From NCBI GenBank assembly GCA_031213475.1, contig JARUPZ010000016.1, forward strand, positions 8,634,270 to 8,698,269: 64,000 nucleotides of DNA, given 5' to 3'. Both the position numbers and the translations under genes were made by a program. The stretch comes from Nereocystis luetkeana (lineage: Eukaryota; Sar; Phaeophyceae; Laminariales; Laminariaceae). Below, piece by piece: positions 341 to 64,000 of this stretch (its first letter is position 1; each line of letters starts with the position of its first letter). The notes beneath the pieces were generated by a model. The model made no database searches. It was given only the letters and a program-made list of their open reading frames with translations, and was not told the DNA's origin.

Positions 341-1689
341 CGCAACGTCGGGAATTTTGCCCGTAAAAGGGAAATGCCCGGCGAAATCCGTACTGCTATT
401 ATTAATAATATGTACCAGGTATGGTATACAAATATAGTTATGATAGTCCCCGCCAGGCGCAGCTCAGGCCTTTCTTTTTTGCGAATCTCTCCCGTCACCG
501 CCGATCATCTTCTCGCGTTGTTTCTCGACCGGGCCGCGTCCCGGTTAGTCTCGACCGAGCGCAGATCCGCTCGCGGGGCTTCCTTGAGGCCCGAGTCTGC
601 GTCGGGTTCTCCGTAATTTTGCGAGGCCTTTTCCTGCCCTGTCTGCGATTTTAATGCAAAGCCTTGCGACAAGAGCCATGTTTTTATCACGATTCCTTGG
701 GGTACGCGTTCTCCCGCCTTCGGTTCCTCGGGAGAGTGTCGGCCGCCCTGCCGGCGTCACCTTGGTTAGGGTGGGAACGACCTGTCTGTGTGGGTGGGTC
801 GTCGTGAGCTCGAGACCTACGAAACTTGTTACATGCCCGGCAAATAAATGCCTGCCGCCCAGATTTCGTTGCGACGACGTACATACGTACGTGCGTACGT
901 ATGATGTTCACGTAGGTTACGAACACATTTATTTGGTTGGTTGTTTTCACCGCAACCTACGAACGACTGCTGTGCTCGAGACCTACGCCCTTTTCCGCAC
1001 GCCAGCGGAATGCTTGCCACTCATTTTTTCGTTGCGATGGCGTATGCTCGTACACGTACGTATACACTATATCACGCACGAGTGCTCGTATGAATACTAC
1101 CTGGTATTTGTTTATTTTTCGACGAGTGACAAGAGACTGAAAACCAACGACTGCTGCGCGACGCTCGGGATAGAAACCACTTCATACGGCGGCTAATTCC
1201 AACGGTGCCGTCGAGGCGGGCTACGTGGCGCCCTAAATGTTGCTGCTGTTGCGAGGGAGAAACAGCTTTCCACACTACGTAACTGTTCTGTAGTTCCAAG
1301 CGGTTCTCCCCCCCAAGAGCGGGTGTGTTATCACAGAAACATCCCGCACTTATTTCCAAGTAGTTTGCCTCCCACAAACAAGTGCGTGCATTCGCAGAGC
1401 CATAGTAAACATGCGCGTAGCAGTCATAAACCAACCATTATGATAGACAGCGGGTTTTTGGTAGACGCTTCTTAGTTAGGGAGTGCTTAATTAAGGAGGG
1501 GAGTGATCGTTTTTTGGTGGATCGGATGGAGGGATGTTGGTTGTGGTAGTTTTCATGTGCGCCACATCGGTTTTGATTTGTCGTGTATATGACACTGCTT
1601 GCTGCGATTTTGTTCTGGACTGGAGAGTTATTCACTTTCTGGTTCCTTAGTCTTGTTTGGAACAACACTACTCAATGTCGGATGGTAAG
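341..1689. other. Intergenic, no gene recognised
   Basis: Contains a degenerate duplication of about 163 bp (GCTCGAGACCTACG at about 809 and 973, each followed by TTTCGTTGCGA and ACGTACG). A 180-residue open frame here has no recognisable domain. Confidence 0.6.
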
Positions 1690-1690
1690 C

Positions 1691-1729
<39 letters not shown>

Positions 1730-1869
1730 GACAAGCTGAAAGTTGGCACGGAAGGGAGGTAGACTTGGTGCATGGGTTTGTTTCCGAGGTTTTCTTCTTT
1801 CGGGAAAGTATGAGTGATCCATGTTGAAGATCATGCTGCACATTGTCAGATAGATGGCAAGAGGAATAA

Positions 1870-1926
<57 letters not shown>

Positions 1927-1984
1927 CAAAAACAACAACAACAACAAACAACAATAATAATACTAATAATAATACTAATAATAG

Positions 1985-2034
<50 letters not shown>

Positions 2035-2035
2035 G
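1690..2035. repeat. AAT microsatellites
   Basis: Three (AAT)n runs: about 1690-1729, 1866-1922 and 1950-2033. Confidence 0.95.
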
Positions 2036-2044
2036 TTTCACACC

Positions 2045-2340
2045 CCGGATAGACAGATCACGATCTATCTATCTATCTACTACAGTAGATCATCTACATC
2101 AGGTCCTCACCTACCTGCCGGTATGAGAGATTGCTGTGCGGGATCTCCAAACCCAGGAAATGCGTGTTCCGAACTGTAGACCATGCAGATTGTGCGGGTC
2201 TCACCCTGGCACATGAGCTAGATCATACAGACCATACAATATCGGGAGAGGCACTCACTGCTTGCTGTAGATCTGCCTTGAAATATCTAAAGCTATAGAT
2301 CAGCAGGTAACTGGGAATCGATGACCTGTGCGGTGTGAAC
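2045..2340. repeat. Dispersed repeat family D, copy 1
   Basis: Starts GGATAGACAGATCACGATCT; shares CCCAGGAA, ATGAGCTAGATCATACAG and CCTTGAAATATCTA blocks with the other D copies. Confidence 0.75.
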
Positions 2341-2870
2341 ATTCCCAACACCAATTCCAACTAGATGTCCCCCGTTACCATTCCAAGCATGTCCCCTGTA
2401 ACTACAGTATAGGTCCATTAATTTGCAGCGCAACACATCCCCCCACAATTTCCGAGTATTAACAGTTTGCTCCTCCCCCGCAAAACAGTGGGTGCATTGA
2501 TTTGCGACAGTTTTCCTTCACTGGTTCTTGCAAGCACTTTACGTACGTACTGTGTACACTACCTGGTACCTGGTAACTGCCCCCCGGAAAGTGGGTGGAT
2601 TTATTTTACAGAGCAACAGTTTTTCTTGCACGAATTCCAGCTTTTTCATTCATACTTCGTCGTCCCAGAGTTCGAGAGGGATTGATGAGTGGGTGCATTT
2701 ATTTTCGGAGCAGCAGAGGTTTCCCGACATTAATTCCGAGTACTTTGTTTGCCCCCCCCCGCCCCCTCCCACCCAAAAGCGGGTGGATTTATTTGCAGAG
2801 CATTAGTTTTCCCACAGCAGTAACTCCAAGCAGCATGTTCGACTCCCAAAAGCGTGGGAGAGCGTTTAGT
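2340..2870. repeat. Tandem repeats of about 100 bp related to the foldback family
   Basis: Four or five units share ATTCC.AGTA.TTTGCCCCC, then a GTGGGTGCATTTATTTGCAG-like block. A related unit lies at about 1280-1390. Confidence 0.65.
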
Positions 2871-2876
2871 TGCAGC

Positions 2877-3225
2877 CGGTCGCCCCGGTGGTGAAGTGGT
2901 TAATCTCGAATTCTACTTGTTTGAGTCCTGGGTTCGAGCCCCAGGTGGGTCGGACTTTGAGTTCATTTGCAAAAACAAAAATAAAAAAGGATTCAATTGT
3001 TGAGAGCGCCTTGCAGCGTGGGTGGGCACAATTCGATGCGAGTCGACGAGGGAAGAAAAGGCTGAAATCTTCTCGCGATAAAAATGAAGGCACGTACCGT
3101 AGCGGGAAGGGGGGAGAAGAGCCTGCTATGTGACCCCGGATCTGAGTTACGAGTTGGAAGGAGAGAGAGAAGAAGATATGCGAAGATAATAAATGGGATG
3201 AGCAAAAAAAAAAAAAAAAAAAAAA
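2877..3225 (+). mobile_element. tRNA-derived SINE, copy 1 (full length, poly-A tail)
   Basis: The head resembles a tRNA: A-box-like TGGTGAAGTGG near 2889 and B box GGGTTCGAGCC near 2931, in a T-arm with a 5-bp stem and TTCGAGC loop. A body follows, then an A-run at 3203-3224. The acceptor stem does not pair properly, so it is not a functional tRNA gene. Confidence 0.85.
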
Positions 3226-3700
3226 AGAGAAACGGTTTTCCCACAGTATGTCCCAAGTTCCCCCCCCCCCCCCCCCCCCCCCCGCCCCAAACGTTGGGTG
3301 CAGCAGTGCATGCAAGCTTATAGAGGGGGTAAGGCGAGACGTTCGATTTTTTGTGCGACATGACAAATCGAACGAGGCATAGGTGCAACATCGGGAGGGA
3401 GGGGGGACGGAGGGTATATAGCTGGCTATGCTAAATTCCATCAGGATTTTAGCCAACTGCAAGTTTCGGCTTAAAAAAAAAAGTCTTGGTATTTGCTTGA
3501 CCGCGGTTATTTGACCTCGGTTATTTGAACGTGGTTATTTGATGGTATTTTTTTCGTTCACCATCGTTGAAACATCCACGCTCAAAAAGCAAGTCACGCC
3601 CAAGCGCTCGCGGCGGTGGCTTCACGCACGTTGTCCGCCGCTGCCCAAGAAGTCTCGCGGTTCTGCTCGGTAAGGTCGGCGACAACTCGAACTCCGCGTC

Positions 3701-3702
<2 letters not shown>

Positions 3703-3749
<47 letters not shown>

Positions 3750-3795
3750 TATAATATATTTATATATAATATCATATATATACAATATATACCAG
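3703..3795. repeat. (TA)n microsatellite
   Basis: Alternating TA tract ending in a TACCAGGTA motif (3790-3798). Confidence 0.95.
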
Positions 3796-3799
3796 GTAT

Positions 3800-5429: not shown

Positions 5430-5690
5430 AGGGTATTTACCCCAGCGGTACCCGGGTAACAAACCTGGATAGTGTGGTCATACCCGGGTAGTTACCCGGG
5501 TAGGTACCCGGGTACCTCCAGAGTATGTACCTAAGCACACCCTACCTACCTACCTACCTACCAAATGCGTTCTTTTAGAATATTTACTCTGGGGTACCCG
5601 GGTAGAAAAACGTGGGTATTGTGGTCATACCCGGGTAGGTACCTGGGTACCTCCAGAGTGTATACCTAAGTACACCCTTGCTAACTACCT
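5430..5690. repeat. Cluster of TACCCGGGTA palindromes
   Basis: The 10-bp palindrome TACCCGGGTA and close variants occur several times in two copies of a block of about 120 bp that ends GGGTACCTCCAGAGT and ACCTAAG.ACACCC. Confidence 0.8.
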
Positions 5691-11600: not shown

Positions 11601-14600
11601 AATAAAATGCTACTGCTTTACACCAGGTACCAGGTATACAGTATACTCCGGAGAAAGTAACATCACTAAAAAGTGACTCGTGCTGATGTCGTGACGCGGA
11701 AGTTCAATGCTACAGCAGCCGCTGGACCACACACGTACCTGGTATCAGATGTATTTACACTTGCTTCATCCCGCACCTTGCACAGCGCGGCGGCAGAACC
11801 ATTTTTTCGTTTTTAATTTATAACCACTAGGCGCTAAAAACAGCGACCTTAACAAGGAGAAATGCGATTGTACAATATCACCGAAAACCAACCGCGAGTG
11901 CGAGCAGCACAGCATTCAGTATCATCACGTTATACTATTTGCTGCCGTGGAGACATCCCCTACCTCAACAAGCCTCCTTACGTTCCTTCGCTTGGCACGG
12001 TGCCGTAATCGTCATATACTTTCGACATTTTTTCCCTCAGAAAATTCCTGTGCGGTACCAGAGTACAGCAGTATCATAACACACCATACCCTCCCCAACA
12101 GGAAGAGGGTAAAGTCAAATATAAAATATATACCAGGTACATACGTAATACCTGATGTCCGTCCCCGGTGGCTTAGTAGGTGGTCCGCGTGCCTACTAAG
12201 ATCAATTTCGCGGGTTCAAGTCTCACCGAGAGCATACTCACAAGGACTTTTTCTTGAATGAAAATTGATCGGCGGAAAACGCGAAAGCGTGAGTTAGCTA
12301 CACTCGATGAAAATCGACGAGCAGTGGGAACGCTGAACCCTATGCGCGACAAAAAATAAAGGCACGCACCGGGGTGAGAACGGACGACACCTGTGACCAG
12401 GGCTTGTCCAGAAGAAGACCGCTGAGGGTAAAACCTCCTGCGAGTTAAGCTGGAAAAAGAAAGTGATGATTTGAAATTAAATAAAAAAATGGAAAACACG
12501 TACTGAGCGTCCAATTGTTAAGAGGTGCTCTATTAGGAGCAGGAATGGCTGTGCTCCGTCTCGAAAGGGACGCGTGGTCAATGGAAAATTACGAAAACAA
12601 GCAACAAATGAGTCGAAAGGGTCGCGTAGTATTGGTCAAACGACTTAACCCTTTTAGCACCGCAGTCCCGTTTTGGGTACAACCTACTTGAAATTGGAGT
12701 GGTTTGTCCCCAAAACGGGACTGCGGTCCTAAAGGGGCAAGCAACGAATGGGTGCGCGCCCCCCCCACACCCCCAACGTGCCGGTTCTCCCTGCCCATCG
12801 CGTATGGCGCCGCACTATCACCTTGCACGCCGCTCCCGCTATCAATCTACAGCAGTAGCAGTGATGATGTAAAAATGAGGAATTAGAGCGGACTGTCAAC
12901 CATTCGAAAAAACTCATGTCATCTTAGGTAAAGGCGGGCCACTTCGTACGCCAGTTGAAGTAGTGAGGGTCACGGTTTGAGAGAGGAGTGTGCCAAGCCT
13001 GGTTGACCTCTCTTAAACCTTTTAGAGCCGCAGTCCCGTTTTGTGGACCAAGCACTCAAATTCCAAGTACTTTGTCCCCAAAACGGGTCTGCAGTCCTAA
13101 AAGGGTTATACCCGAACTGATCTTCAACCGGAAATGCATGCTACGGGAGGGTTCCACCTGTTTTTTTCTGACGCTTCTCACTTGAAGAGCTCTACACTAA
13201 TAGCAAGTCATTTGTAAGTCACCCAAAAACTGACATTTGAGAAAAAAAACGAAAGTACAACCCGATGACAGCGGTAAATCACGAACAATACCGAAGTAAA
13301 AAAAAAAACAGAGGTATTCCGACGATATTGGGTTAAGGAGCTTGGTCGGTCAGAAATATTTGGCTCGGAAGGCAAAAAGTGCTACTACCCTAATCGTAGC
13401 AGGCGTCCGGAATGGGAAAAAAAGTAGGATGTACTGGTACAATAGCTTTTACCCGTAGCATGCCCGTGCCAAGCAGTTTCACCTGTTAAACCACTGCTTC
13501 GCTTAAACCGATGGCTCTTAAACCGCGACCTCCTGTAATATGCTGTACGCAGAATGTGCAGTACTGCTCTTAAACCGATAGCTCTTCAAACGTGACCCCT
13601 ACTACTACTATCACGGGGGACCATAGTGAATAGGACCTACGGCACACACAAAAACCTATATATTTCGCTATTTTTACTAACAAGATTTGGTCGTATTCAC
13701 TATGGTCGCCCGTCATACTGTAATATGCTTCGCATACACAGATTGGTGCAGTACTGCTCTTAAACCGGTATCAAGCTCTTAAACCGTGACACCCTAATGT
13801 GCTATTCACATCACAGTGGTGGTACCGCTCATCATGTATGTTACCACGGGGTTAATGAAGGTAGTGGCGTGTGAGAAAAGCATTACGGTACGTATATACT
13901 ACAACACCTTCAGGGAGTACCTGGCATATCGCAACTACCGCAGTTACCTTTTTTGGCATATTCTACCTTTTTTGGGTACTTTGGTAGGAAGCGAATTCGT
14001 TGCTGACAGGCAGTATTTTGTAGACCCCTCTAAAAGCTATATAATCCTACAACACCCCGTAGAAGTCGCCTTCGAAATGTCACTACTGCTGTTGTAGAAT
14101 CAGTACGAGCACACCAAGCTTGCACAGATGGATTTTGAGGATTTTTTCAATCTCACAAATTCGGCTCGTTCATAATTTTTTTCATCATACCTTTTACCTT
14201 CCCGCTTTCTACTGTACGTACATGTCACAGGTGTCGTCCCGTCTTCCCCCCGGTGGGGTCGGTCTAATAAGCCATGCCTTTCTTTCTACCGCGCAAACGC
14301 TTCAGCATTCCCACTCCGCGTTGGTTGTCATCGGACACACACATATGTGTGCGGAAGGCTGAACGAAATAAATCTGGGGTTAGTGTACGTAGCGATACCT
14401 TGATTCTCAAGTACGCAAGCATAGAAGCGCGATTACAGCAGGCAGGAGACACGTGGGGGATACGCTCGCGCATGATCTGTCGCAGAGTGGAGCCGCTCAT
14501 GATGTTCTGATGGTGTGTGAGGGAAACATTATGATGCGGAAGGCCAAACGACAACAATCTTCTGGGGCGTCTGGAGCGACGTATCGATTCTCAATATTGG

Positions 14601-17600
14601 AGGCGTGACTGGGTATAGGGGAAAAGGGAAGGGGATATATATATAATACAAGGCGCTTCGCTCAGAGGGCGGCCTACGCCGCCCGCTACGCTCGCTCTGG
14701 AAGAAAAAGTACATGTCGAATTACGCGAAGCGGACAGAAGGTCGATGATTGAACATACCCTGGTATATTTTTATGATTGTTGTATAGTTGCAAATTGGCG
14801 ACTTGATAATGCCAAGAGTCACATGCCGCACGTACTGGTACGTACATACCCCAGGTAGGGCACTGATTTTCTTCTTTCGATATGCTGTATAATATGTACC
14901 TGGTATGTACGCACGAGAAAGCACAGCATGGCACAGCGGCACAGCACTGCAAAAACTATGAAAACGAAACCGAAAAATTCGGAAAGAGAAAAAAATCCCC
15001 CCTGGAACACCTTGCACCAACCAGTCAAAGAAGAAAAAAAACAAAAAAAATGAACAGCAGAGCTTCTCTCTCTGCCTCGTACGCCGCCCGCCCCTCTCTC
15101 GACCAACTCGCCACCGATTCGGTCCGTGTAAAGCTTTCCTCCCTCTCTGTCACAGTGATCCCGGTTGCCCGCCCCGCGTGAAGCCCGGTGCTCACCGTGA
15201 CCCTCGTTCGCCAGCTTGACGATGTCGATGGTCACAGACGGGCGTTCGTCTCTTTGTATAGTTCAGCGTGGTCGCAAAAATAAGCACCGCTTGAATCTCA
15301 GCTTGCAATCCCGAACGTCCCTTATGGACTCGAACATACTCAGTCTAATTTTTCAGATGGATGCAAAACAGAGCCCATTCATGCTTCCCTTGTGTCTCGA
15401 GGCACACACGACGCCTAGCCACGTAAACCGCGACCGCACTCCTTGCAACCCCCCCTCTACCCGCCAGCATCCGCCGACACCCGCGACGGCGCCGGGCTTG
15501 CCCGCGTCACCGTGCTCCGACTACACACACGCTCTCGAAACGGAAGAAGAAAAAAGGGGAAAAAAACTGAAAGTGCAAAAGAAATTTCAACCTGCCGGTG
15601 AAAAAAAGCGAAAGAGAGCCTCCCAAACCGCTGAAAAAACAAAATCGACGTTTTCTTTTTCCGAGATTTTTTTTCTATTGTTCCGGGAAAAAAAGTGTGG
15701 CACGAGAAGCAAGCACGCGAAAAACGCAAAGAACGCGAAGAAAGCAAGGATCGTAGAAGCGACAAAAAACCGTGGGAGACTCGCTGAGCGTGAGGCAGGT
15801 ACTTATGATCAAGTGATTTTAGGAAAAGGGTAACTTTAAGTATGTGTATATATAAACATATATATATATATATGTATATGTATTCAAAGTGTTGATCCGT
15901 TTTACATGAGAATATATATATACGTATATGTATTCAAAGTGTTGATCCGTTTCACATTATGATTGGGGGTTATGGTGTAAATACCTGGTATGTGCGTACT
16001 GCTGTAGAGGCGTGTGAGGAAAGCACAGACGGGAGGCCCATATTTTGTGAACAATGTCGCTTTTTTTCGGCCCTCTGGCATACGGTGGTCAGTGGCAAAT
16101 GCAGCCAGTAGTGGGCAATCCAGCGGTATCCATGCGATCAATTATCGCTGCACACGGTGTAAATACCTGGTATGTGCCTACTGCAGTGGCGTGTGAGGAA
16201 AGCACAGACGGGAGGCCCAAATTTTGTGAACAATGACGCTTTTTTTCGGCCCTCTGGCATACGGTGGTCAGTGGCAAATGCAGCCAGTAGTGGGCAATCC
16301 AGCGGTATCCATGCGATCAACTACCGCTGCACATGGTGTAAATATGTACGTACTGCAGCGGCGTGTGAGGAAAGCACAGACGGGAGGCCCATATTTTGTG
16401 AACAATGTCGCATTTTGTCGGCCCTCAGGCATACGGTGGTCAGTGGCAAATGCAGCCGGTAGTGGGCAATCCAGCGGTATCCATGCGATCAATTACCGCT
16501 GCACAAAAGGCCCTTCAAAATCTTTCCGCCCTTATCGATATCAGCAGCAGTCAAGACGTCGAGGCTATATCTGACCCTTAGTAGGGCAAACTGCATTCAG
16601 TCCCGTTTTGGGGGCAAACCACTCAAATTCTAGGTAGATAGTTCCCAAAACGGGACTGCGGTCCTAAAAAGGGTTGACGAAGGTTTTGCTTTTTTAACTT
16701 TTACAAGTGGTACGGCCAGCGACACGACAGAAGCACTCTAACTCCGAGTAAAAATCAAGGAAAAACCTCCTATTAATAATAGTGCTGTATAATACTGCTG
16801 CAAGCTCATACAAGGGGGCTTCGCCGGCGGCCTAGTCAGGGTCGACAACGAAGCCGAGACCCGCAGACAACGAAAAATCACTCCAAACGACAGTTTACGA
16901 TGCCACCGGCCCGTTTAATATGTGCGAGCAGTCCCTCACGCCACATGATCAGTCGGAAACTAATGTTCGCGACCGAGCGGCAGGCAGGTCATATTTCGAC
17001 CACCACTACGGGGACGCTCAGGAGCCACCACTAGATTTCAGGAATTGCGTTTCAGGTTGGAGTGGGGGTTCAAGTCGTTGAGGTTACGTAGGATTAGGGT
17101 AATTGGTCTTATTTTTTATAAGTGCGGGTGTATAGGGCTGTGACAGACCTGCAGCGACGGGGGTTTGACGTGATTTACACCTGACCGGAGGTGAGGAGCT
17201 TCTCGCCACGAGAGACGCTGCGGCAGGGCCTCGCTGTCGTCTGGCGCTGGTCTGGGCTAGGGACCCGACTATTGACAATTCACCAGCAGTTGCGCACAGC
17301 CAGATTACACGAGAAAAACGTGAAGAGCCCAAAAACAGAATGCTGGCAAACACGCGTCCTATCACCGACAGGAAAAGGGGCCGCTCGATCAGGAATCAGG
17401 AAGCTTATCGACGGTCGGATTGAAAGATGAACGCCTTCTCAGGGGCCCAACGTCAAACAGAAGCCAATGCAGCCCTTTGAAGAGACGGACTAACCTAACT
17501 ATAAAAACAACGACAACAACAGCAACAAAAACAACATGTTACGAGCGTTTACCAGCAACCGGGTTATCCAAATACGAAGTACTAATGAGGAGTTTCATCG

Positions 17601-46400: not shown

Positions 46401-49400
46401 GAATCCGCTTTTTTTTTTCGTTTCCACAGTCACGAGTGTTGAGAACTGCCTCGAACACGCTATCGAAATTACAGCAGCTACCAAAGCCCACGTTTCCGGC
46501 AACGATCGATGGGAGGGGCGAAGCCAGCTTGTGCGACGCACTTCTCGAACAGCGGGCTCCCACCTTGAAAATATCGTAGGATCCACTACCGTGAAAAAAA
46601 AGGTAACAGGACCATCGTAGAAGCCTTAAAAAATATAGACACAAATATCGTACAGAGTAGATGTCATCAGGAACGAGCTTGAGAGCGTCGTACAGTAGAA
46701 CCCACAGTAAAAACGAGCTTAAGAACACAGAAGAGGCCATGAAAATAAACACACCCATGTTCGAGGGTCAAAGTACTTGGAGATCAGAGTAGGACCATTT
46801 TCGCAGTAGTAAAACCGTTAAGAACGTCGTGGAGGCCCTCAAATATCGGCCTTTAGCATGTCCAAGAAGCCCAAAAAAAAACGATAAAAAATATACCAGG
46901 CACTTGTATATGCTTTTTTACCTTTTAATTTCAGCAATGCCAAATCCATACTATTCCAAGTAGTTTGCCCCCAAAAACGTGGATGTAGTTAAAAAGGGGT
47001 TACGCAACATCGCAAAGTTCAGCATTAAATCGACCTGTAGGGTTAGGGTGCCGTGGAAGCCATTAAAAAAAAAAAATGATCCTGGCGGCCGTAAAAAAAC
47101 GGCCTTAACCCCTTCTGGACCGCAGCCCCGTTTTGGGAACAAACTACTTAAAATTTTGAATGGTTCATCCCCATAGCGGGACTGCGGTTCTAAAAGGGTT
47201 AGTCCTTTTTTTTACTGCACCCACATTTTGAGAACAAAACTACTTAAAAAATATTATTGGGGCGTTTCTGGCAGCCGTACACTACACACCATGTTTTTAC
47301 TATTACTAAGATAAATAAGTGAAATGAGTGAAAAAAATATCCCACGCTTATTTCAAGTGTTATTTCCCCAAAACCGTGGGTGAAGTTGTAAGGGGAGATT
47401 TGATTGGCCCTTCCACGTACTGATGCGAAAACACTACGTTGCTCTCTGTGTACGTGCAGTAGTTTCAAGTAAGTTTGCCCCAAAAAACTGGTTGCAGTTC
47501 TATAGGTTATACTTCGTATACATCTCTGTACCTGGTACACGAGCATATAGAAATGACTATGAACTCGTATGGAGTGGACGGTCGCTACCTGAGCCCTTCG
47601 GTAGACATTTAGGTACTCGTAGCCATCAACTATGAGTCGCGAGCACCAGAGTTTTTCGGAGGAATAACTTTTCATTTTCACTTCCCGGGAATAGCTTCAA
47701 CAGGACTGTCAGGTTTGTTGGCTTTTTGCTACAAGTACGTACAGCAGCAGCTTGCAGATGTATTTTTCTCTCTGCTTGTTGAGAACCAAGCTTTTGTGCG
47801 GTCTAGCTTTTGCTAACATTTTTTGCCCGCGGGAAAGACCCGGCGAACACCTCTCTCCGCCTTCGGGGAGTGGCTACCTACCCTGCTGTTTTTCCCGGAA
47901 TATGGGCGCCCGCCGCAAGTAGCTGTGGTCGCCTGTCATCAAGAACATGGCATGGACAGTTCGCAGCTAGACCGCTACTGCAGCTGCGGGTGCGGATGCA
48001 GTATATGATCCACACCGCACTAATACAGTGTATTAGTTGGTGAGAAGGATTGCTCGCTGATGTAGTCTATACCTGGTATAACTTTTTATATGCCGTATTA
48101 GTAGTGAACAATTATATCTAAAAAGCAAGCACGCACCATGGGTGGGTACGTAGACTGAATACTGCTGTATTTTTGGCTCCACACATCTACGTATACATAT
48201 TCCGAAGAGGAGTCTTGTGAGCCATAAAACAGAGTTTTGAGCGCGAAAAAAACTCGCCTGCTTCCCCTCGTGTTGTCGGCCGGGCTTCGGCAAGAACATC
48301 ACCCCGTTTGCCTCGGCAAACGCCTCCACGACATCGCGGAAGCTCGCCGTGATCGGCCCCGTCCCGACCCCGCCCCCCGCCGCCGCCGCTCCAGCCCTAA
48401 GGTGCTGCTGCTGCAACTGCTGCTGCTGGAGCTTCTGCTGGTGCAGCGTGGCCGCTTCCATCCTTCTTCGCTCGACCACGCGTATGTAGTCCATCTGCTC
48501 GCTGGCGCCCGCCGGCAGGGGCACACCTTGCTGCTGGTGGTCTTGCATCACCTTTGAAGGCCAAGCACGAAGGAGGGGGAAACGGGGACGGGAGGGAGGG
48601 GGGGGGGGGGGGTGTACTCAATATGATGCGTGCCCGTAGTCGTACGACTATAGACCCTCGCATCCCTACAAGGGGCTCGGGTGAAGGGTTTGCAAGCGTT
48701 AATGATTCGGAGGAAACAGAGGAACGAAGGCGGAGGAACTTGAGACGGGGGGGGGGGGGACGGGACGGGACGGCACGGGACGGGGGAGGTTGCAAGCATT
48801 CGTGGTAACAGCCAGCAATCGAAAAGGGGGAAATTGAGACAAGGAGGGGGGGGGGGTTGCAAGCGTTCATGATTCGGAGGGAATGACCACCTGTAGCGAT
48901 GGCTGCAATCGTCCGATGTGACCCTGTTTATAGCGTGCTAACCAAAAATGGCGGAGAGGTGCCGTTTGTCGGAAGTCAACCTGCGCGATTGATCAGTGCA
49001 AAACCTGTCGGCAGTGAATTCACCGATACTTTCGTCTGTCAGCACGCCTCTCCCGAATCGCGGGATCTATGACATTGCCACTCGTTCGTAACCATCGTCA
49101 GCATTAGTCACCACCAAAAACCATCGTCATCATCCCCAATCATCACCAATCGCCATCAGTCGATCACCAAAACTGCACCAAGCATGATCATCACCATCCA
49201 TCACCAATACCACGTGCATCATCACCATAACCCTAACCCTAACCGCCAACGATCACCGACCACCAACGATCACCGACCACCAACGATCACCGACCATAAC
49301 CGATCACCACCAACAACTTACCGACCACTCAGTAAGCACCACCAATCACCACCAACCACCACTCCCCAACACCATTCGCAACCATCAACCACAGGTACAT

Positions 49401-55300: not shown

Positions 55301-57823
55301 CGTGACGACGTTTATCGGGCGTGACACTGCAAGCGGGGATGAAAAAAACCCATCACCCCTCCCCGCAAAAAAAAGGACGAAACAGCTTCAAACAACCCGA
55401 AGCGCCAAGCAACTATTACGGGGGACCATAGTTAATAGGACCAAATATTGTTAGCAAAAATAGCGGAATATATAGGTTTTTGTGTGTACCTTAGGTTCTA
55501 TTTAATATGGTCCCCCGTAATATTAATAACTCCAAAGCTAAAAGCTAAAGGCACCCAAAAACAAACTAAAAGCATCAAATCAACCCAACACCATCGAATC
55601 ACTAAAAACTAACCAAAACATCCTTAAAAAAATTGACTGCCGGCGGGAGTGGAGGGGGGGGGGGGCTCACCTGCCCCTCCCAGCGTCTCGCCCTTCCTTC
55701 ACCCTCGACCGCATCGGAAGTGTCCGTGAGCACCTCCTTCCAGGAGGCGAGAAGGATCGCCGGCTCGGTCGGCGCCTGCAAGGTGAACCAAAAGGTGCAA
55801 CAGAGGAGACGAAACCGAAACTCAACGGTGTTTACGCGACAAAAAAAACATAACTACGTACTTGAAAAATAAAGAAGGAAAAAATTGGAGTCGTACATAG
55901 TAAAAGCAAAAAAAAAACATTGCGACATCTCGTGTTTAGTGCGTCAAACTTCCCGTGTGTTGTGTGTTGTGCCTTTGTGTAATGTGTGTTGCGTTCCACC
56001 TCAAACGGCTCGTTGTACTCATCACAGAGACCAACCCTATTATTAATAGTAGCCCAGGCCGAGTGCCGAGTAACGACGAATCGAGTGCAGATACTGGAGA
56101 ATCGTCGCAAGCAACACTGCGGCGGTGGGAGTGCTTGCTGTCGTTGCTCGGCTTGGAGAGCTCTCGCCCAGTTTCTTCAAACATCTAGCGCTCGGGCATG
56201 TTGGGTTATTTGTGGACACCGACGGTGTTTTACATAGCGTATAGCGAAACGTGTGTGGGGGGGGGGGGGTTCTTGTCTGAATTCGGGAGACGAAATACCA
56301 CCCTGTTCGGAAAGGAAAGGACAGTATGGGGTTTCAACAACAATACCGAAACGGCCTTACAACGCCGGGCAGGGTGTACAAACTCCCATGGGCACAAACG
56401 ACGTTCTGCAGAGAAAATAACTGAGAATAGAAAAAACAAGAAGCAGGAGGGCAGCGAGTATTGAGAGGCCAAACTGTTTCACACGTCGGAGGCATCACGG
56501 CCTACACCAGTAGCTCATCTAGATCCTGACCTGCTGCTACGATAATTGTGGATGATCTGTAGAGTACATATCCTACCCAGGAAGCGTGTCTTAGACCATG
56601 CAGGTGATAGGATCTGTGCAGTACAGATCCTACCCAGGAAGCGTGTCCTAGATCATGCAGATTAGACGGCTCCCACCCGGAAACACGAGCGAATAGACAG
56701 TGTAGATCATGCTGATCAGGGGATATATCTATCTGCCCTGAGAGATCTAGATCATCAAGTGATAATCAATCATCTGTAGATGATCGGTCTGAGGGGTGAG
56801 CTACTTCAAGAAAAAAAACATCACGGGGGACAATAGTAAACAGGACCAAGTATTGTGAATAAAAATAGGCAAACACATACCTGGTAGGTTTTGTGTGTAG
56901 GTCCTATTTACTATTAATATGGTCCCCCGTGATGGTAAAGGTGCGTCGGGTACTGGGGTAGAGAGGCAGGACGGGGGGAACCGGAGGTGGGAACAAAACG
57001 GTGCTTACTTCTTCGCGCGAGTAACGGCATGCTGCCGCAGCCGTTGATGTAGCCGCTGCTGTAGCCGTCCCCCGGCTGGAGGCGTGCTTCATGGCCTGAT
57101 GTGTATCGTACAGTCCTCTGTTATACCAGATACGGTAGTGCAGCTTTGTGCTGTACTACTGCTGTCGTTTTGGACTTATCTACTACTGTTTCGTACCGTA
57201 CTACTGCTGTACCAGGTATATGTTAGACTACCAACTGCTGTTGTGTTCGTACGCGTTCTGCTCTTGTACATTGTACTTGCACCCAAGCGATTTTTTTTAC
57301 TACGGTAGTGACTGCGGTGGCATTGTATTAACATTATTCTGACGCTGTATCACTCGATTGCACTGACTGCGCTGCGCTGTACTGCTGTACTGCATGGTGC
57401 CATCTGGGCAACTTTGCGTGTCTGTATGCTCCAGTGCCTGCCTTTGGTATTTTCTTTCCCCCCCGCCCGTGATTATCGCTTTTTTGTCCCTTCTTTTTTT
57501 TTCATTTTTCTTTCATTCCCGTTTGTACCTCTTTGTGTCTTTGTTAGTATGGTCCGTTTTGCCTTTTTTTTTGCGTTTTGCTATCTGCGTCTGTTTTAGT
57601 TTTGTTTTTGTTTTTCTTTTGCTTAGCTTTATCTTCTTTTTTTTAGGTTTTTGTCTGCTATTAATAGTCTCCTTTTTGCTTCCCTGGTGTCCGCAGTGGT
57701 GGAGTGCGTATGCTTGTTTTTTGTTTTTTGCCTCTGTATTTACTTGAGGTATTTCTTCCACTCCAGAGTTATTGGGGCCTGTCCTGCGACCACGGACTGC
57801 ATTGAATTGTGAGTTAATGTGAG

Positions 57824-57873
<50 letters not shown>

Positions 57874-60800
57874 CTGCACCTGCAACGGGCTCCAGCCGGC
57901 GAGCGACCTCTTGATGACGGGAGCAGCCATGGCGGGCACGAGCTGCGCCAGACCAAACACCGCGTACTCCTCGGGGAAACGCTGCCTCAGAGTGCGGAAA
58001 GCCTGAAATAAAACGCAGTCAGATATGGCAGCAACATATAACGAGCGAGCAAGCGAGCAAGCGAGCAAGCAAGCGAGCAAGCAAGCAAAGCAAGCAAACA
58101 AGCGAACAAAACACGCAAAACATCCAAAACAACCAAAACAAAACAAACACACAAACAGCACGTGGGGGAGGGGGGGGGGGGGGGGGGGGGCGAAGCGTCG
58201 AACTTAATCGGAACCGCGAGCTTGCAAGCTTTCAGCTACAGCAGGATGCATTTTCTTGCATCCTCTCATTCGATATCGCAACTCTCCTCGAACGACACGC
58301 GCCACGACTAGATCCGCCCGGTTTCGGCAAAAGGCTGTACCTGGTACAGAATTACCTTGGCGCAGCCTCGACACAATGGTTGAACATACCGTAAAGACGC
58401 GTTGATTTGATTGAGTTCGCAAAGCAGGGGTGGGTGGTGCTACGATCATCGTCTTTCAGCGCTCGATTTATCCAAAACCGCAAGGTCACCAACACCGAAA
58501 AGGGTGTTTTTCGGAAATGTCATGGTCTCGAGAGAGCCTTCCAAACAAAAATATAAAGTTCGACTTTCTTATTGATAGCACCCTTACCTACCGTACCGTT
58601 AATGAGAGAAAGCAAGCGCTCAAAAAAACGACCGCACCCCAGTGCGCGAGTAGAGTATGCTCGAGTTTAAGCACCTGACACGTGGTGCGACTGGGGCAAC
58701 GTAGTATATTAATAGTGCTATTATTACGGGGGACCATAGTAAATAGGACCAATAATTGTTACTAAAAATATGTAAATATATAGGTTTTTGTGTAGACCAT
58801 AGGTCCTATTAACAATGGTCCCCCGTAATAGTAGGTCAACCAAAAAACTGGTTTTAATGGTATATATGTACCCGAGCAAAACTTCCACGGCCTAGTGTAG
58901 ATTCAATAGGGTGTCTGCGAAAAATGGTTGCAAACCAATTTGGTCGGGTTTTTAGTAGTCTGGTTCCTACCTTGGAGCAAAACCCCACCCACGGGAAAAA
59001 AAAAATCTCGCCGGGACGGGACGGAACCACGGTACCAATGCGACGACGGTTTCTACCGTCCCGTCCCGCTGTTACCGTCAATACCGTCCTGCCAAGAGAC
59101 CATGAAATATAATCCTAAATGAATCCCGTGGGAAAAAAGTCACCACAGTGACGCTTTCAACTCTTTCAGTGCTGCAGTGCACAGGCACACCCATTTGACT
59201 CCAATTCCAAGTAAGTTGCGCGAGAAACGGGAGTGCAGTCCAGCCCTAAAGGGGATAACCTAATTATTCCCGGGTTGGGTTAACGTCGTGGGTTGGTTAG
59301 CAAAACGCAGCGAATTTCTGACTGGCTAGGGCCTCCTTCGGATTTTCCTGTTCAACCAATCACCTCCTCATGTTTGTTGGTTTCACATGTGGTGTTCTAC
59401 ATAACCGAACCAAATCGGATTATCGCAAACACCCCAAGAACGAAAAATATCATCTAGAAAAACTGGGGATTTTCTCAATTGAGGAGCCCCGTCAATCAGA
59501 AACATTGCCTCACAAGGCAAAAAAGCGCTACCCCTAATTGCAATCCCTGACGTACCACGCGTCCCCTAGCCCCTTTATCCCCAACCGCCTGATACCAGGT
59601 GTATTTGTCGGAAAACTCTATGAGAATGTGATGACGATTTGTGTGTACTGTCTGCATCAACCATTTAGCTGTCTGCATCAACCATTTAGTCGAAGCCGGA
59701 CCAAGCTCTCACCTTGAGGACGTTATCCGCCGTGACTGCACCGGGATCCTTGACCACCTTGTCATGAACCCGGAACAGAATGGTTTCCACCTGAAGAAGG
59801 TCGTTTACGCCGCACACAAACACAAACACAAAAAAAAGAAGAAAAACCGCCAACAAGGGGTCGGGGGACATGTCTCAAAAACACTGTCCGCCGTGAAAGC
59901 ATCGGGGCCGTTCGCCACCTTGTCATGAAACCTTAACATGCATCGTTTCCACCTATCTGAAGGAGGCCAGTTCATGTCGCCCATAGAAAACCACAACGAG
60001 AAACGCAAACAAGGGGTCAGGGGATAAAGGTAAAATATAATAACACCGCCGCCGAAGGTTTCCCCATTACAGCGAACGACAACAAGCAGAGGCGAGGTAT
60101 CTCTGCATTTTTGCACAGGCTTTTTACCTACACCCAACAACAGTAACAAACCATGAACGAAGGAGATAGGGGATACATAGGAAGTGGCACCGCAGCCGAG
60201 CGTGTCACCGTCACCACAAAACCGGAATAGGGAGGTGCGAGGCATATCGACAAAATTTCCACCTGAAGGCCTGAAAGAAGCCAACATCGCCGTGCGCAAA
60301 AAAATGACACAAAAACACACCAGTCTCGAGCATACACCCGTTTCGAGCACGGGAAAAAAAAAAAAACAATAGGTACGGCGACGATGCACTTCTCATCGCT
60401 ATCCTCCCTACTCTAGTTGTTGTCTCTACTACTGTCTCTACTATTACGGGGGGGGCTACTAAATAGGACCTACCACTGTATACAAAAAAAAACTCTATAT
60501 TTTGCTATTTTTACTGACTATATTTGGTCCTATTTACTATGGCCCCCCGCAATACTGTCTTCAATGCTGTCTCTACTACTAGCTTCACTACTGCCTTCAT
60601 GACTTGTCTTCCCTATTGTCCGTACCGCTTTCTTCACCACTAGCCCCCGTTCTTGCCGTCAGCAAATACTCCCTTTTTTAGTCGGCAACGCTCTCTTCTG
60701 GTGGCCCCGCTGCAAGGCGTCGCTTGGGTGGTACTGTCTTCGCTATTGCCTGCAGCAATACCTCAACATTGCTGGGATGCACGGTTCCGATGCCCCCGCC

Positions 60801-61201: not shown

Positions 61202-61240
<39 letters not shown>

Positions 61241-61260
61241 TAGTATTATAGCAGTAGTAT

Positions 61261-61323
<63 letters not shown>

Positions 61324-61339
61324 CAGCAGTAGTAGTTGC

Positions 61340-61400
<61 letters not shown>

Positions 61401-64000
61401 CTAGCAGCAGTGGTAGTAGCGGTAGTAATAGTGGTAGTGGCAGCAGGAGACAAAAAAAGCAGTAGCATACAAGGTTCCCCTTCGGGGTTACGGTTTACTT
61501 GAAATCCCGGAGGCGTCGTAAGCTTAAAGGGGAGTACACAGCTATTAATAGCAGGCGTTCGTTTCTCGGACCAGCTATTAATAGTCGTGCGTACCAGGTA
61601 TACAGCCACCGGGCAAGCACGAAGAACATAAAAAAAAGCTCTTGAAAGCTAAAAAAAACGAAGAAGCTACGACGTACCCAGCAAGTAACCGGACAAGGTA
61701 CACCGACCGACCAGCCCAGACGAGCCCATAGCTACAGTAGTCCAATACAGGAGTTGTACAATAGCAGCAGCATCGACGTGTCAGGGGCCAACAGGAGGAG
61801 TGGTCGTAGCGAGCAAAAGTAGAATAAGCACGCAACATCGCGACAGCGAGCAAACACGGCCGCAACACGAGAAACTACCGAGGTAATACAGTAAAACATG
61901 AAAATATCGCGCGAGTAAATCAGTGAACACGTACAGTATGCTCGCCTGTATTTCCGTCTCCGCCAGGCCCACCATGAGACCGACGTTGTGCAGCAGCTCC
62001 TGTCCCAGCTTTGGAGAGGCCCCGTCCCCCACCCCTACCGCCAAGGGAGCGAGGTCGTCCATGCTGCTCACGAGCTTAGCCTTCGCACGAACAGACAAGA
62101 GATGGGGGGGGGGGGGGGAGAAAAAGGAACGGCCGCGAAATAAAGTGTCGACATCTTCGTGTGAACATCAAGAGTAACATCAACAGCAACATTCAACAAG
62201 AGCGTAGCGAAAAAAAACAAGAAGCGAAAACATTACCGGCAAGTGACAGCACTGAATTAGCGACAATACCAACAGCCAATGCCTGCATCACGGCCACCAC
62301 CATCACCAACAACAGTGGCAAAGATAATGCCTCCTTTCCCGAAAGAGGGGGACGGGGGAGGGGAAGGAAGGAAGTGAGAGCAACATCACAACAAAAAACG
62401 CCCTCAGCATGCATCAACGCCGCAACGGCTCCTCCTCCTCCTTCTCCTCCTCCTCCTCCCCCTCCCCCTCCTCCTCCTCCTTCCCCTCTTTCTCTTCTTC
62501 CTCGTCTTCCTCTTTCTCCTCCTCCTCGTTCGCTCGCCTGGCCAGCCGACCCTCCTTTTATCAACAGGCATACAAGCCAAGTTGCACGCGATCGTTTTCC
62601 GACGTTGCAAGTGTTGTTGTTGTTGTTTTCCCCTAGCCGCCACCAAAGATATGTCGCAAGCGATCTGTTTGGAGCCGTTACCCGCACAGGGGTCGGCGAA
62701 GTCCTCGGTTTATACCTGAGGGCCACGCATGTCGACGATGATTTGCTTTGGGGGGGGCTTGGCCTCCCCCTTCTCCGCCGCGTCCTCCTCCTGACTCTTG
62801 AGCAACTCTTCCGGCGTTACGAACCTGCAACACAAACGAAACCGAGGTCAATTGAGCACTCGATCAGTCACAAAGTTGATCAACCAATCGAGCGAGCAAG
62901 CGGGCAATAATCGAACCAACCGACCAGCCAACAAGCCAGCTAATGAATCAATGAGCCAGTTCATCATTGAATCAATCAATCAATCAATCAATCATACATT
63001 GACCAACCAACCCGACACCAGTCAACTGACCGACGGTTTCACGCGAGAAAAACTAACACAACAACAGTGCCAACACCACCACCACCAAAACCCCCACCAA
63101 CACCAACACTAACACCAACACCAAAACCAACACCAACACCAACACCAACACCAACACAACAACCCGTCAAAGCGGGATCTACCATTGCTGCCTGCGCCTA
63201 TTCAGCTTCTAGCTGCAGGAGCGTTACGTGCGCGCGCCGTTCATTGCAAAAATGCGTGCCGTACGCCGGCGTTGCGGAAGCATTGAAACCGCCGCGCGCG
63301 CACGCGGAGGCAGAGCGGGAGAATTTTCCGCGCACTTTCTCAAACCACAATGAGACAAAAGAAAACGCCTCGAGAGCGGAGTCCCCTCATTAATTCACTC
63401 TTTAGTAGTGCAAAAACGATACCCCTCTAATTTCAAGTAATTGCTTTCGAAACCGTCGGAAAGGGTTGGAGCGCAAGAGGTAAGAAAAGCCCGCGTGCAG
63501 CAGACCAGTGAAGTTTCCGGGCACTTTCTCAAGAGCAACCATCTCGGTAGCCAACCTCTTTAAGCTATAAACGCACTCGTAAATAAAAGCACACCCGCCC
63601 GCCTTTCACTTAACGGCGGCGCCAAGCGTAACTTATTATTGCACCGCGTTCACCTCACGGTGCTGCCAAACGTAACTCACTGAACCGCGTTCACTACACG
63701 AATGCGCCAAACGTAACCGAGTGCACCGCTATCACTTCACGGTGCCGCCAAACGTTACCGATTGCACCATTGCACCGCTTTCACTTCGCGGTAACGCCAA
63801 ACGCAACCGATCGCACCGCATTCGCTGCACGGCGGCGCCAAATGTAACGATTGCACCGCGTTCACTCCACGGTGGGGCTAAATGCCAAATGTGATCGATT
63901 GCACCGCACCTCTTTCTCTTCCTTCCCGCGGCACCCTTCCTCCACAGTCCCTTGTCAGCCATCTGCTCTTCCTTTGACTTAGGCCCTCGTCCCCTAGATA
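31222..64000 (-). CDS. TFIP11: TFIP11/Ntr1-family spliceosome-disassembly factor (14 exons visible, 5' end outside window)
   Basis: Fourteen exons (listed separately) join in frame to about 664 residues that align end to end with the C-terminal three quarters of TFIP11. Landmarks in order are a VTPEELLKS segment; QELLHNVGLMVGLAETEI; a coiled-coil exon; the GCFC-type helical region with FPEEYAVFGLAQLVPAM, LIHTWVHPWLPLL and VHWDPSDATAYVMLSPWK; FFPKWLTVLHRWLS; LWYQGWKDRFP; and the terminal block FLPKPGRQHEGKQ/IYAFGGISVYLD. TFIP11 (yeast Ntr1/Spp382) activates the DHX15/Prp43 helicase to take apart intron-lariat spliceosomes in the nucleus. The N-terminal G-patch that binds the helicase would lie upstream of the window. 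Two introns use GC donors (after 61946 and after 48258). The last intron is 16,817 bp and holds a satellite array. The gene converges on rsmG. Confidence 0.95.
31660..32090. repeat. CATGACTGCCGTGACATGACA-type minisatellite
   Basis: Irregular repeats built from TGCCGTGACATGA and GGCATGA, in the last TFIP11 intron. Confidence 0.85.
32225..32450. repeat. CAG-rich low-complexity DNA
   Basis: CAGCAGCAG runs mixed with GCAACAGAAGCAACCTGC. Gln, Ser and Ala open frames here are intronic and have no match. Confidence 0.8.
33135..33238. repeat. Foldback element (family B), copy 5
   Basis: Good palindromic arms, just left of the satellite in the last TFIP11 intron. Confidence 0.85.
33510..45918. repeat. 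12.4-kb satellite array of GATCGTTGAACGATC units
   Basis: The array is made of degenerate units of about 37 bp in which the palindrome GATCGTTGAACGATC alternates with a T-rich spacer of type CTTTTTAACGATCC. The left part (33.5-39.9 kb) is diverged. The right part is organised in higher-order repeats. No recognisable gene lies inside; minus-strand open frames encode only Lys/Asp/Arg-rich repeats of the unit. Confidence 0.97.
39917..45918. repeat. Higher-order repeat zone of the satellite (about 1.15-1.22 kb period, about 5 copies)
   Basis: The marker AACTATCC occurs at 39917, 41141, 42330, 43519 and 44671 (spacings 1224, 1189, 1189, 1152). The marker CATTATAAAC occurs at 40779, 41930, 43119, 44271 and 45423 (1151, 1189, 1152, 1152). 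Copies are near-identical, so this zone was amplified recently. Confidence 0.95.
46092..46195. mobile_element. TA MITE (family A), copy 4
   Basis: Inverse orientation to copies 1-3, TA-flanked. It lies in the last TFIP11 intron just beyond the satellite. Confidence 0.88.
47105..47200. repeat. Foldback element (family B), copy 6
   Basis: Good arms; half copies flank it at about 46950-47000 and 47206-47250. Confidence 0.85.
48258..48551 (-). CDS. TFIP11: TFIP11 exon m (GC donor)
   Basis: 98 codons, from VMQDHQQQG through a poly-Gln tract and ITASFRDVVEAFAEANGVMF to GRQHEGKQ. It must stop at HEGKQ, because the family continues with (L/I)Y(T/A)FG, which is found only on exon n. The donor is therefore CAG/GCGAGT, a GC donor. 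Confidence 0.93.
48598..48690 (+). repeat. Family P, copy 5 (partial)
   Basis: G-run, then GTACTCAATATGATGCG and CCCTCGCATCCCTACAA. It is in TFIP11 intron l-m, close to exon m. Confidence 0.72.
49403..49507 (-). CDS. TFIP11: TFIP11 exon l
   Basis: 35 codons, VALWYQGWKDRFPEVL to LTLMDQ, matching human KWYLGWKSMFS. Acceptor CGCAG, donor CAG/GTATGT. A GGGA microsatellite lies upstream of it in the intron. Confidence 0.95.
49565..49635. repeat. (GGGA)n microsatellite with G-quadruplex potential
   Basis: About 15 GGGA units upstream of exon l. The G-rich strand is the template strand of TFIP11. Confidence 0.95.
50404..50547 (-). CDS. TFIP11: TFIP11 exon k
   Basis: 48 codons, DMAPFNMLMMWADLIPPLYM through FFPKWLTVLHRWL to DYAE. 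Acceptor CAACAG, donor GAG/GTGAAT. Confidence 0.95.
50971..51170 (-). CDS. TFIP11: TFIP11 exon j
   Basis: Two bases plus 66 codons, VFPEIRRKLAAALVHWDPSD through SPWKNVFDYRSMEALL to INPSNQ, aligned without gaps to the human protein. Donor CAG/GTGCGC. Confidence 0.95.
52114..52228 (-). CDS. TFIP11: TFIP11 exon i
   Basis: 38 codons plus one base. It carries the family hallmark TEWDPRTDTILIHTWVHPWL. Acceptor GGCCAG, donor GCTG/GTGAGT (phase 1). Confidence 0.95.
52310..52400. repeat. (GTT)n microsatellite
   Basis: Interrupted GTT tract upstream of exon i in the TFIP11 intron; CAA on the gene strand. Confidence 0.95.
53040..53595. repeat. Degenerate (CCGTTA)n hexamer array in TFIP11 intron h-i
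   Basis: About 550 bp of variants of CCGTTA, CCGTCATCG and CCGCTA with a 6-bp period. Open frames of Asn/Gly/Asp on the minus strand and Thr/Val/Leu on others follow from the period and are not genes. Confidence 0.9.
53690..53851 (-). CDS. TFIP11: TFIP11 exon h
   Basis: 54 codons, AAFEFLANDLVLPAVRSAL to IVQSLLMQ, matching AFHRLIWEVWMPFVRNIV of the human protein. Acceptor TTTTTTCAG, donor CAG/GTGAAA. Confidence 0.93.
54898..55013. repeat. Foldback element (family B), copy 7
   Basis: Diverged arms with CTGCAGCTCCGTTTTGGGG on the left and CAACACGGGACTGACTGCAG on the right. Confidence 0.78.
55416..55520. mobile_element. TA MITE (family A), copy 5
   Basis: TA-flanked copy with TTACGGGGGACCATAGTT termini, in TFIP11 intron g-h. 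TATTAATA follows directly on the right. Confidence 0.9.
55671..55775 (-). CDS. TFIP11: TFIP11 exon g
   Basis: 35 codons, APTEPAILLASWKEVL to RRWEGQ, matching the human GTEIISKWKSLL segment. Acceptor TTGCAG, donor CAG/GTGAGC. Confidence 0.92.
56495..56800. repeat. Dispersed repeat family D, copy 5
   Basis: In TFIP11 intron f-g; the block CCTACCCAGGAAGCGTGTC is duplicated within it. Confidence 0.75.
56821..56932. mobile_element. TA MITE (family A), copy 6
   Basis: In TFIP11 intron f-g. It carries TACCTGGTA where other copies have a plain TA, and 6 extra bases TTAATA in its right arm. Confidence 0.88.
57826..57873. repeat. (CAA)n microsatellite
   Basis: CAA units beginning seven bases past the donor of TFIP11 exon f. 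Confidence 0.95.
57880..58002 (-). CDS. TFIP11: TFIP11 exon f
   Basis: 41 codons, AFRTLRQRFPEEYAVFGLA to LAGWSPLQ, matching the human segment IFETLQDKYYEEYRM...EWDPL. Acceptor TTTCAG, donor CAG/GTGCAG; a (CAA)n microsatellite follows the donor. Confidence 0.93.
58724..58828. mobile_element. TA MITE (family A), copy 7
   Basis: TA-flanked copy in TFIP11 intron e-f, close to the family consensus. Confidence 0.9.
59156..59255. repeat. Foldback element (family B), copy 8
   Basis: A strongly diverged copy with the shared spacer CAATTCCAAGTAAGTTG. Confidence 0.65.
59713..59790 (-). CDS. TFIP11: TFIP11 exon e
   Basis: 26 codons, VETILFRVHDKVVK to TADNVLK, between TTCTTCAG and AAG/GTGAGA. Degraded copies of this exon lie just upstream in the gene (59880-59965 and about 60190-60290). 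Confidence 0.9.
59880..60290 (-). pseudogene. Degraded duplicate copies of TFIP11 exon e
   Basis: At 59880-59965 the minus strand reads a close copy of exon e (RFHDKVANGPDAFTADSVF in one frame). It has an extra base after the acceptor, causing a stop, and a lost donor. At about 60190-60290 a more decayed copy keeps TTCAGGTGGAAA and part of the body. The unit of about 150-160 bp ends in a GGGGTCGGGGGA-like motif. Confidence 0.7.
60444..60552. mobile_element. TA MITE (family A), copy 8
   Basis: TA-flanked copy in TFIP11 intron d-e, with a shortened left arm. Confidence 0.85.
60998..61114 (-). CDS. TFIP11: TFIP11 exon d (coiled coil)
   Basis: 39 codons, TLHRRREAEKDRASALKKDA to LSRLES. Charged heptad-like sequence corresponding to the coiled coil before the GCFC region. 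Donor AGC/GTGAGT. Confidence 0.88.
61196..61430. repeat. (GTA)n microsatellite
   Basis: About 230 bp of GTA units with few interruptions, in TFIP11 intron c-d. Confidence 0.97.
61946..62080 (-). CDS. TFIP11: TFIP11 exon c (GC donor)
   Basis: 45 codons, AKLVSSMDDLAP to LAETEIQ. With the GC donor (CAG/GCGAGC) the join to exon d has the same length as human TEQEIIQNDRQLQYERD. A GT donor nine bases further on (TAC/GTGTTC) would add three residues and is the alternative. Confidence 0.85.
62716..62824 (-). CDS. TFIP11: TFIP11 exon b
   Basis: After TTGCAG it reads FVTPEELLKSQEED and ends KQIIVDMRGPQ at CAG/GTATAA, matching the TVEEL...VIDMTG region of human TFIP11. Confidence 0.92.
63612..63909. 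repeat. About 49-bp minisatellite abutting a TFIP11 donor site
   Basis: About six units of type CGCCAAACGTAACCGA, TTGCACCGC and TTCACTTCACGG. The final unit ends at GCACCGCAC, which is the intron's donor GTGCGGTGC on the gene strand. Confidence 0.85.
63910..64000 (-). CDS. TFIP11: TFIP11 exon a (partial at window edge)
   Basis: The frame ends KGLWRKGAAGRKRKR in phase 2 at donor AGAG/GTGCGG. This fits the basic stretch before the (Y/F)xTxEEL segment of the family. The exon continues past the window edge. Confidence 0.85.

Follow-up and report, generated by a model that had tools for sequence, protein, structure and literature searches.

The Tc1 element of C. elegans, which inserts at TA, leaves a TA-flanked palindromic footprint made up of two bases from each of its ends. 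Across the Tc1/mariner elements, overhangs of 2–3 nt (PMC3878927) and footprints of 2–4 bp (PMC7913693) have been described. In Sleeping Beauty the first cut falls 3 nt inside the element and the overhangs are 3 nt long (PMC7827188), and the footprint is given as C(A/T)GTA in Table 1 of PMC3878927; derived from those 3-nt overhangs, the A/T position would represent one mismatch between the two overhangs. Footprints of 0–4 bp are reported for Passer (PMC9976928), excision sites of Hsmar2 are often mixed (PMC3770610), and rice excision sites often carry deletions, with 8 of 94 described as perfect (PMC4423477). At sites vacated by Stowaway MITEs and Osmar5 in grasses, TA is found together with 1–4 bp of the TIR, and repeated insertion at one TA has been recorded (PMC1925063). 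Among the brown algae, Ectocarpus contains 17 families of Mariner-Tc1 elements with 11,912 copies, and the words footprint and excision are absent from the main text of the paper that reports them (PMC12477816).

The sequence analyzed here is a 64,000-nucleotide stretch from the brown alga Nereocystis luetkeana (the window), across which the odd palindrome TACCWGGTA is scattered at about 0.52 per kb, or roughly one per two thousand bases. This word resembles the Sleeping Beauty and Frog Prince footprint TA-C(A/T)G-TA in having TA on both sides, in being a short odd palindrome and in its A/T centre, and differs from it in having a core of 5 bp (CCWGG) as opposed to 3 bp and a brown alga as host. 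The same rule that would give the Sleeping Beauty footprint, applied to 5-nt overhangs CCAGG and CCTGG, would give CC(A/T)GGTA. The scar of Tc1 in C. elegans is an even palindrome without a mismatch, whereas TACCWGGTA is odd. The footprints of grass Stowaway elements and Osmar5, as described in PMC1925063, are asymmetric and variable, whereas TACCWGGTA is uniform and palindromic. With Ectocarpus the window shares a host group rich in Tc1/mariner elements and MITEs (PMC12477816). From sequence evidence, we consider that TACCWGGTA is very probably an excision footprint of the Tc1/mariner type whose core is unusually long. The footprint class is already known; the unusual parts are the 5-bp core, the density and a parent element that was not found in the window. 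Literature searches on footprints, mariner elements and brown algae listed no paper on the motif, and the listed papers that contain either 9-mer deal, by title, with other subjects; this is no proof of absence in print.

Abundance and form of TACCWGGTA

A pattern search of the window found exactly 27 copies of TACCWGGTA, every one of them starting where the original prediction had placed it. Chance would give 0.51 copies according to a second-order Markov model fitted to the 51,680 bases that lie outside the satellite, the original prediction having put the figure at about 0.5 for equal base use, and 100 dinucleotide-preserving shuffles of the window gave a mean of 0.20 with a standard deviation of 0.45 and a maximum of 2. 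When the satellite is left out and 9-base odd palindromes occurring four or more times are ranked, TACCWGGTA comes first by both count and ratio, the runner-up having a count of 6. It is also at the top of the TA-N5-TA words found four or more times once perfect short repeats have been masked, with 27 copies against 0.51 expected. The motif is sharp, in that words with one mismatch number 20 against 10.9 expected, and the centre base of TACCNGGTA is A in 14 copies, T in 13, and C or G in none. The motif is real and greatly exceeds chance, and its copies lie clear of the satellite and do not make up one long repeat.

Because the copies starting at 2560 and 2567 overlap, as do those at 23729 and 23736, the 27 copies make up 25 loci. 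Single footprints of the form TA-CCAGG-TA were found by pattern search at 413–421, 12131–12139, 18731–18739, 25015–25023, 25342–25350, 57210–57218 and 61592–61600, with another bordering an AT microsatellite at 3790–3798, and those of the form TA-CCTGG-TA at 1098–1106, 11736–11744, 20634–20642, 24216–24224, 47529–47537, 48070–48078 and 58338–58346. Two further footprints, at 45931–45939 and 45956–45964, occupy units 1 and 2 of a 25-bp duplication. Three stretches of about 8 kb are without any locus, and clustering was not significant in several tests against random placement on the TA sites of the window (P from 0.10 to 0.79).

The satellite spans 12 kb (33676–45915) and consists of AACGATCCTTTTT / AACGATCGTT units with periods of 37 and 74 bp. 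As had been predicted, it is free of TACCWGGTA (about 33.6–45.9 kb), the copies at 45931 and 45956 lying just outside, and it was rejected as a source of the motif. The accompanying statement that no copy lies in an exon is upheld for the recognized coding stretches at 25427–26395 and 26430–27770, which contain zero copies, and reaches further than the present exon map, which is partial. The first of these ORF stretches has a zf-HIT match above the Pfam cut-off. The second has SAP and partial GidB (rsmG) matches, both below the Pfam curated cut-offs, and a protein search with part of it, which scored the 7993 candidates with the most words in common, gave 15 proteins, the best 60% identical; all seven of these 15 that are named by organism are from brown algae (five from Ectocarpus, one each from Scytosiphon and Hapterophycus), which places the host among the brown algae. 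Scans of the window for Rfam families and tRNAs gave no match. Interstitial telomere-like CCCTAA arrays are found at 18248–18292 and 23044–23101.

Presence and absence of the motif at TA

A MITE family of about 110 bp, with a TIR like TTACGGGGGACCATAG / TTACGGGGGACCATAGT, has eight copies in the window when matches of at least 80 bases are considered (13609–13717, 23380–23501, 23791–23906, 46089–46197, 55413–55524, 56820–56933, 58722–58830 and 60442–60554). Their ends read TTACGGGGG or near, and by eye five of the eight copies have TA on both sides. Three copies served as empty-site references: 13609–13717 on the minus strand, with a TIR like TTACGGGGGACCATAG, 55413–55524 on the plus strand, which is followed by TATTAATA, and 58722–58830 on the plus strand. 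One copy carries a footprint at 23815–23823, and at the equivalent position a second copy has the decayed form TATCTGGTA (23402–23410), which has lost the motif at one base and is also a 7-bp difference at TA relative to sister copies; the remaining six copies have plain TA in five cases and CA in one. Another MITE copy has its footprint at a different TA of the element (56878–56886), where comparison with the sister at 58.7 kb gives a clean 7-bp gap in that single pairwise alignment, the gap being split in some others. In a 179-bp array, copies 1 and 2 read AAATACCTGGTATGT, with footprints at 15982–15990 and 16164–16172, and copy 3 reads AAATATGT, with plain TA at 16343–16344 where the other two have TACCTGGTA.

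Sister repeats spanning both flanks were thus available within the window for five of the 27 exact sites, after matches near the site itself and matches not spanning the site had been dropped. Four of these sites (15982, 16164, 23815 and 56878) have a plain-TA sister, the difference falling at a TA target and being bounded by TA at either end, and the fifth (14897–14905) has TACTGTA in its sister, at 21274, and no plain TA. The other 22 sites are without an informative sister in the window, nine of them having only short matches of 14–29 bases that are driven by the motif or by AT-rich flanks. A variant scar, TA-CCCTGG-TA at 14756–14765, is missing from a diverged sister repeat near 21.0 kb in an alignment that is ambiguous by 1–2 bases.

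Comparison of the window with itself, with the satellite masked and an E-value threshold of 1e-6, produced 88 alignments containing 245 gaps, among which gaps of 5, 6, 7 and 8 bp numbered 15, 16, 13 and 2, respectively. Eleven of the thirteen 7-bp gaps correspond to a piece of the motif at TA, namely CCAGGTA (4), CCTGGTA (1), TACCTGG (2) and the decayed TCTGGTA (4), and the other two lie in a tandem array near 63.7 kb. The tally is per alignment, and these 11 gaps represent five positions (23815, 15982, 16164, 56878 and 23402) and perhaps four events. The 7-bp difference at TA is most simply read as a gain of the longer form, since most copies of the MITE have the plain state and those with the motif carry it at more than one TA of that element.

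Tandem units with a period of 7 occur at three places. Two footprints share a common TA at 2560–2575 (starts 2560 and 2567), a mutated unit CACCAGG precedes the exact footprint at 11628 (11621–11636), and three units, TACCAGA, TACCAGG and TACCAGG, followed by TA, make up 23722–23744 (exact sites 23729 and 23736), the first unit being decayed in the latter two tandems. These arrangements would fit re-insertion at the TA of an old scar; simple tandem duplication also fits, because the centre base is identical across the units within every tandem.

The flanks of the loci were evaluated by collapsing all 25 to TA and comparing them with the 2786 background TAs at eight outward positions, with uncorrected P values given per position. 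T was found at position +1 in 30 of 50 flanks against 13.9 expected (chi-square P 2e-6), A at +2 in 26 of 50 against 12.8 (P 1e-4), and T at +6 in 27 of 50 against 12.0 (P 4e-6); when 16164 and 45956, which are duplicated loci, are left out, the counts at +1, +2 and +6 are 27, 24 and 26 of 46. The collapsed sites therefore favour TATATA-like flanks, an AT-rich palindromic target that resembles the palindromic ATATATAT preference described for Sleeping Beauty and ZB (PMC7913693). Beyond this preference the sites have, by eye, no common flanks, which argues that the copies do not all belong to one long repeat.

A probable excision footprint and its alternatives

The original prediction held that no feature type explains the motif. 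That view can be replaced, as the TA ends, the centre restricted to A or T, the flanks, the period-7 tandems and, above all, the plain-TA sisters fit an excision footprint. The parent would be a cut-and-paste DNA transposon that inserts at TA and moves in the manner of Tc1/mariner elements, with a transposase presumably of that type. Its insertion would duplicate the TA. On excision the transposase would cut one strand at the tip of the element and the other 5 nt inside, and both broken ends would carry 3' overhangs CCAGG or CCTGG, given a TIR that starts with CCWGG. In the annealed overhangs a central A:A or T:T mismatch would be flanked on either side by two C:G pairs, and end-joining would seal the ends; because repair of the mismatch would give A or T with equal chance, TA-CC(A/T)GG-TA would arise in about equal A and T numbers. 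The period-7 tandems would arise when the element re-inserted at the TA of an earlier scar and then excised again. Since the process would be cut-and-paste, a low-copy element could leave many more scars than copies.

The letters CC-W-GG pair except at the centre, and from this we infer the cleavage. Judged by the letters of the CCWGGTA scar, the overhang would be 5 nt instead of 2–3 nt. All 27 copies have a 5-bp core, as the pattern itself requires, as against the 2–3-nt overhangs and 2–4-bp footprints described for Tc1/mariner elements, and for this reason we speak of a parent that works like these elements and not of a canonical member. The transposase so predicted, with 5-nt overhangs and ends CCWGG, goes beyond the range of 2–3 nt published in PMC3878927, which counts against the footprint interpretation. 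Published excision sites are also often heterogeneous or accompanied by deletions, whereas the scars of the window are very uniform; the four base pairs formed by the annealed overhangs could explain this uniformity. It further speaks against a footprint that a plain-TA sister is available for only 4 of the 27 sites, with TACTGTA in the sister of 14897 and the clean gap at 56878 confined to one pairwise alignment, and that no element with CCWGG ends was found within the window.

The search for such an element covered pairs of TA + CCWGG ends within the window, one mismatch being allowed, and gave no convincing TIR pair among the 2742 pairs formed by 112 left and 126 right ends when 20 bases were compared. 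The three best pairs match at 15 of 20 positions, and two of the three join footprints to each other. None of the inverted repeats inspected (the 25 longest out of 175 pairs and the 25 longest out of 101) starts with CCWGG, and they are mostly MITEs and low-complexity sequence. Free TACCWGG ends, with no TA after them, are not in clear excess in the window (17 against about 13.5 expected), and no transposase was recognized among the 10 of its ORF stretches that were compared with Pfam.

A different chemistry within the same footprint class would be that of a canonical mariner element whose overhangs are 3 nt long and whose ends read CCA or CCT, in which overlap of the last base followed by gap filling would give CC-W-GG without a 5-nt stagger. 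The letters left behind would be identical, and the TIR of the insect mariner Mos1, which begins with CCAGG, can be counted in favour of this chemistry. Overhangs of 2–3 nt are moreover the described state (PMC3878927). Such an element is nevertheless predicted to leave a mixture with TACCATA/TATGGTA, and this 3-bp form (CCA/TGG) is not in clear excess in the window (TACCATA, 9 against 6.4 expected); a lone A:A mismatch would in addition give no pairing, so that the uniformity of the scars is hard to explain, and we regard the 3-nt chemistry as unlikely. It is very unlikely that the motif is a very short palindromic repeat dispersed by its own spread, or the hallmark of a longer repeat family: there are indeed many copies, some of them within MITEs and one array, but flanks shared beyond the TATATA-like preference were not seen by eye, and the MITE has the motif at different TAs and is mostly without it.

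A site for a transcription factor or other protein, bound as a dimer to a palindrome under selection in non-coding DNA, would account for the palindromic form, the AT-rich flanks and the zero copies in recognized coding stretches. We find this scarcely probable at all in view of the precise 7-bp presence or absence at TA inside unrelated repeats and of the sharpness of the motif, near-matches standing at 20 against 10.9 while exact copies stand at 27 against 0.51, which is not a degenerate enrichment. The probability that the motif is due to chance, or is a by-product of microsatellites or composition, is practically nil even though AT repeats are plentiful in the window, as none of the 100 shuffles reached 27 and masking of perfect short repeats left 27 copies against 0.51; for this window, chance, composition and microsatellites are refuted by the shuffles and the repeat-masked count.

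Under the preferred reading as an excision footprint, scar loci occupy about 1% of the TA sites in the window (25 loci, 2786 TA dinucleotides). We tentatively raise the possibility of a brown-algal lineage of TA-inserting transposases, so far undescribed, whose cut lies 5 nt inside its ends and which has been active enough to account for this fraction. If true, a genome of the size of that of Ectocarpus (200 Mb; PMC12477816) would contain about 100,000 scars, a figure that is arithmetic and not measurement, the scars would outnumber surviving elements many times, and transposon history would be readable from scars alone. Because cut-and-paste elements erase themselves on leaving, their earlier activity is usually estimated from the copies that survive; the scars here would record past jumping at an unusually high density. 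A uniform scar that can be counted as a short word would provide a direct tally of excisions, target choice and repair, with the age of a scar readable by its decay, for example in TATCTGGTA. Ectocarpus is without cytosine methylation (PMC12477816), which bears on how a brown alga would have tolerated such activity.

A second algal sequence and other repeats

A scan of genome contigs with the MITE pattern matched a single contig, JALZWD010000061.1, which is titled as a Flavimaricola MAG and of which 8000 of 12,215 bases were analyzed. Bases 1 to about 3.6 kb (1–3650, the boundary being set by eye) resemble brown-alga nuclear DNA and the rest is by eye bacterial coding DNA, so the contig looks chimeric, with an algal start and a bacterial remainder. 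MITEs and other dispersed repeats of the contig match the window up to base 3048. Its algal part contains three copies of TACCWGGTA, the last at 3589, and the bacterial part covered contains none; the copy at 2762 is a 7-bp difference in a MITE, in the opposite arm. Three MITE copies and one partial copy are present, and TATTAATA occurs three times in the algal part. As the motif recurs in algal DNA of this contig, it is no peculiarity of the window. Scans of viral contigs for two repeat patterns gave no match.

The word TATTAATA is itself enriched in the window, with 13 occurrences against 0.26–0.30 expected (400, 4898, 16771, 17760, 19275, 23500, 55521, 56041, 56912, 57659, 58707, 61543 and 61576). 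If the MITE with TTACGGGGG ends left a Tc1-like scar that kept two bases of either end, the result would be TA-TT-AA-TA, and TATTAATA resembles the scar of Tc1 in C. elegans in kind. At 56912–56919 it lies in a MITE copy whose 13.6 kb sister is without TTAATA, this being the one sister comparison in which TTAATA is an extra piece. A further round at the central TA would be expected to yield TATTATTAATAATA, a word that is found at one place each in the window and the chimeric contig. It is possible that TATTAATA is a scar of the eight-copy MITE; because TAA microsatellites are common in the window, this case is weaker than that of TACCWGGTA.

Several other words were counted in the window. The Tc1-type TACCGGTA is not clearly enriched (3 against 1.0 expected), whereas TACCAGTA (5 against 1.6) and TACCAGGGTA/TACCCTGGTA (2 against 0.15) are slightly enriched and could be imprecise scars. 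TACWGTA is found at 19 sites (for example 11433, 21274 and 51464), where about 7 are expected, and, by analogy with the Sleeping Beauty footprint, which has the same form, it possibly represents a third family. The palindromic, TA-flanked TACCCGGGTA occurs six times, all in one place, as a local tandem at 5449–5637. Another palindromic repeat family, about 90 bp long (CCCTTTTAG..CCGCAGTCCCGTTTTGGGG), is dispersed in the window, with copies at 12646–12736 and 13018–13108 and near 16.6, 33.1–33.2, 47.1 and 54.9 kb, and is also present at bases 2949–3054 of the chimeric contig.
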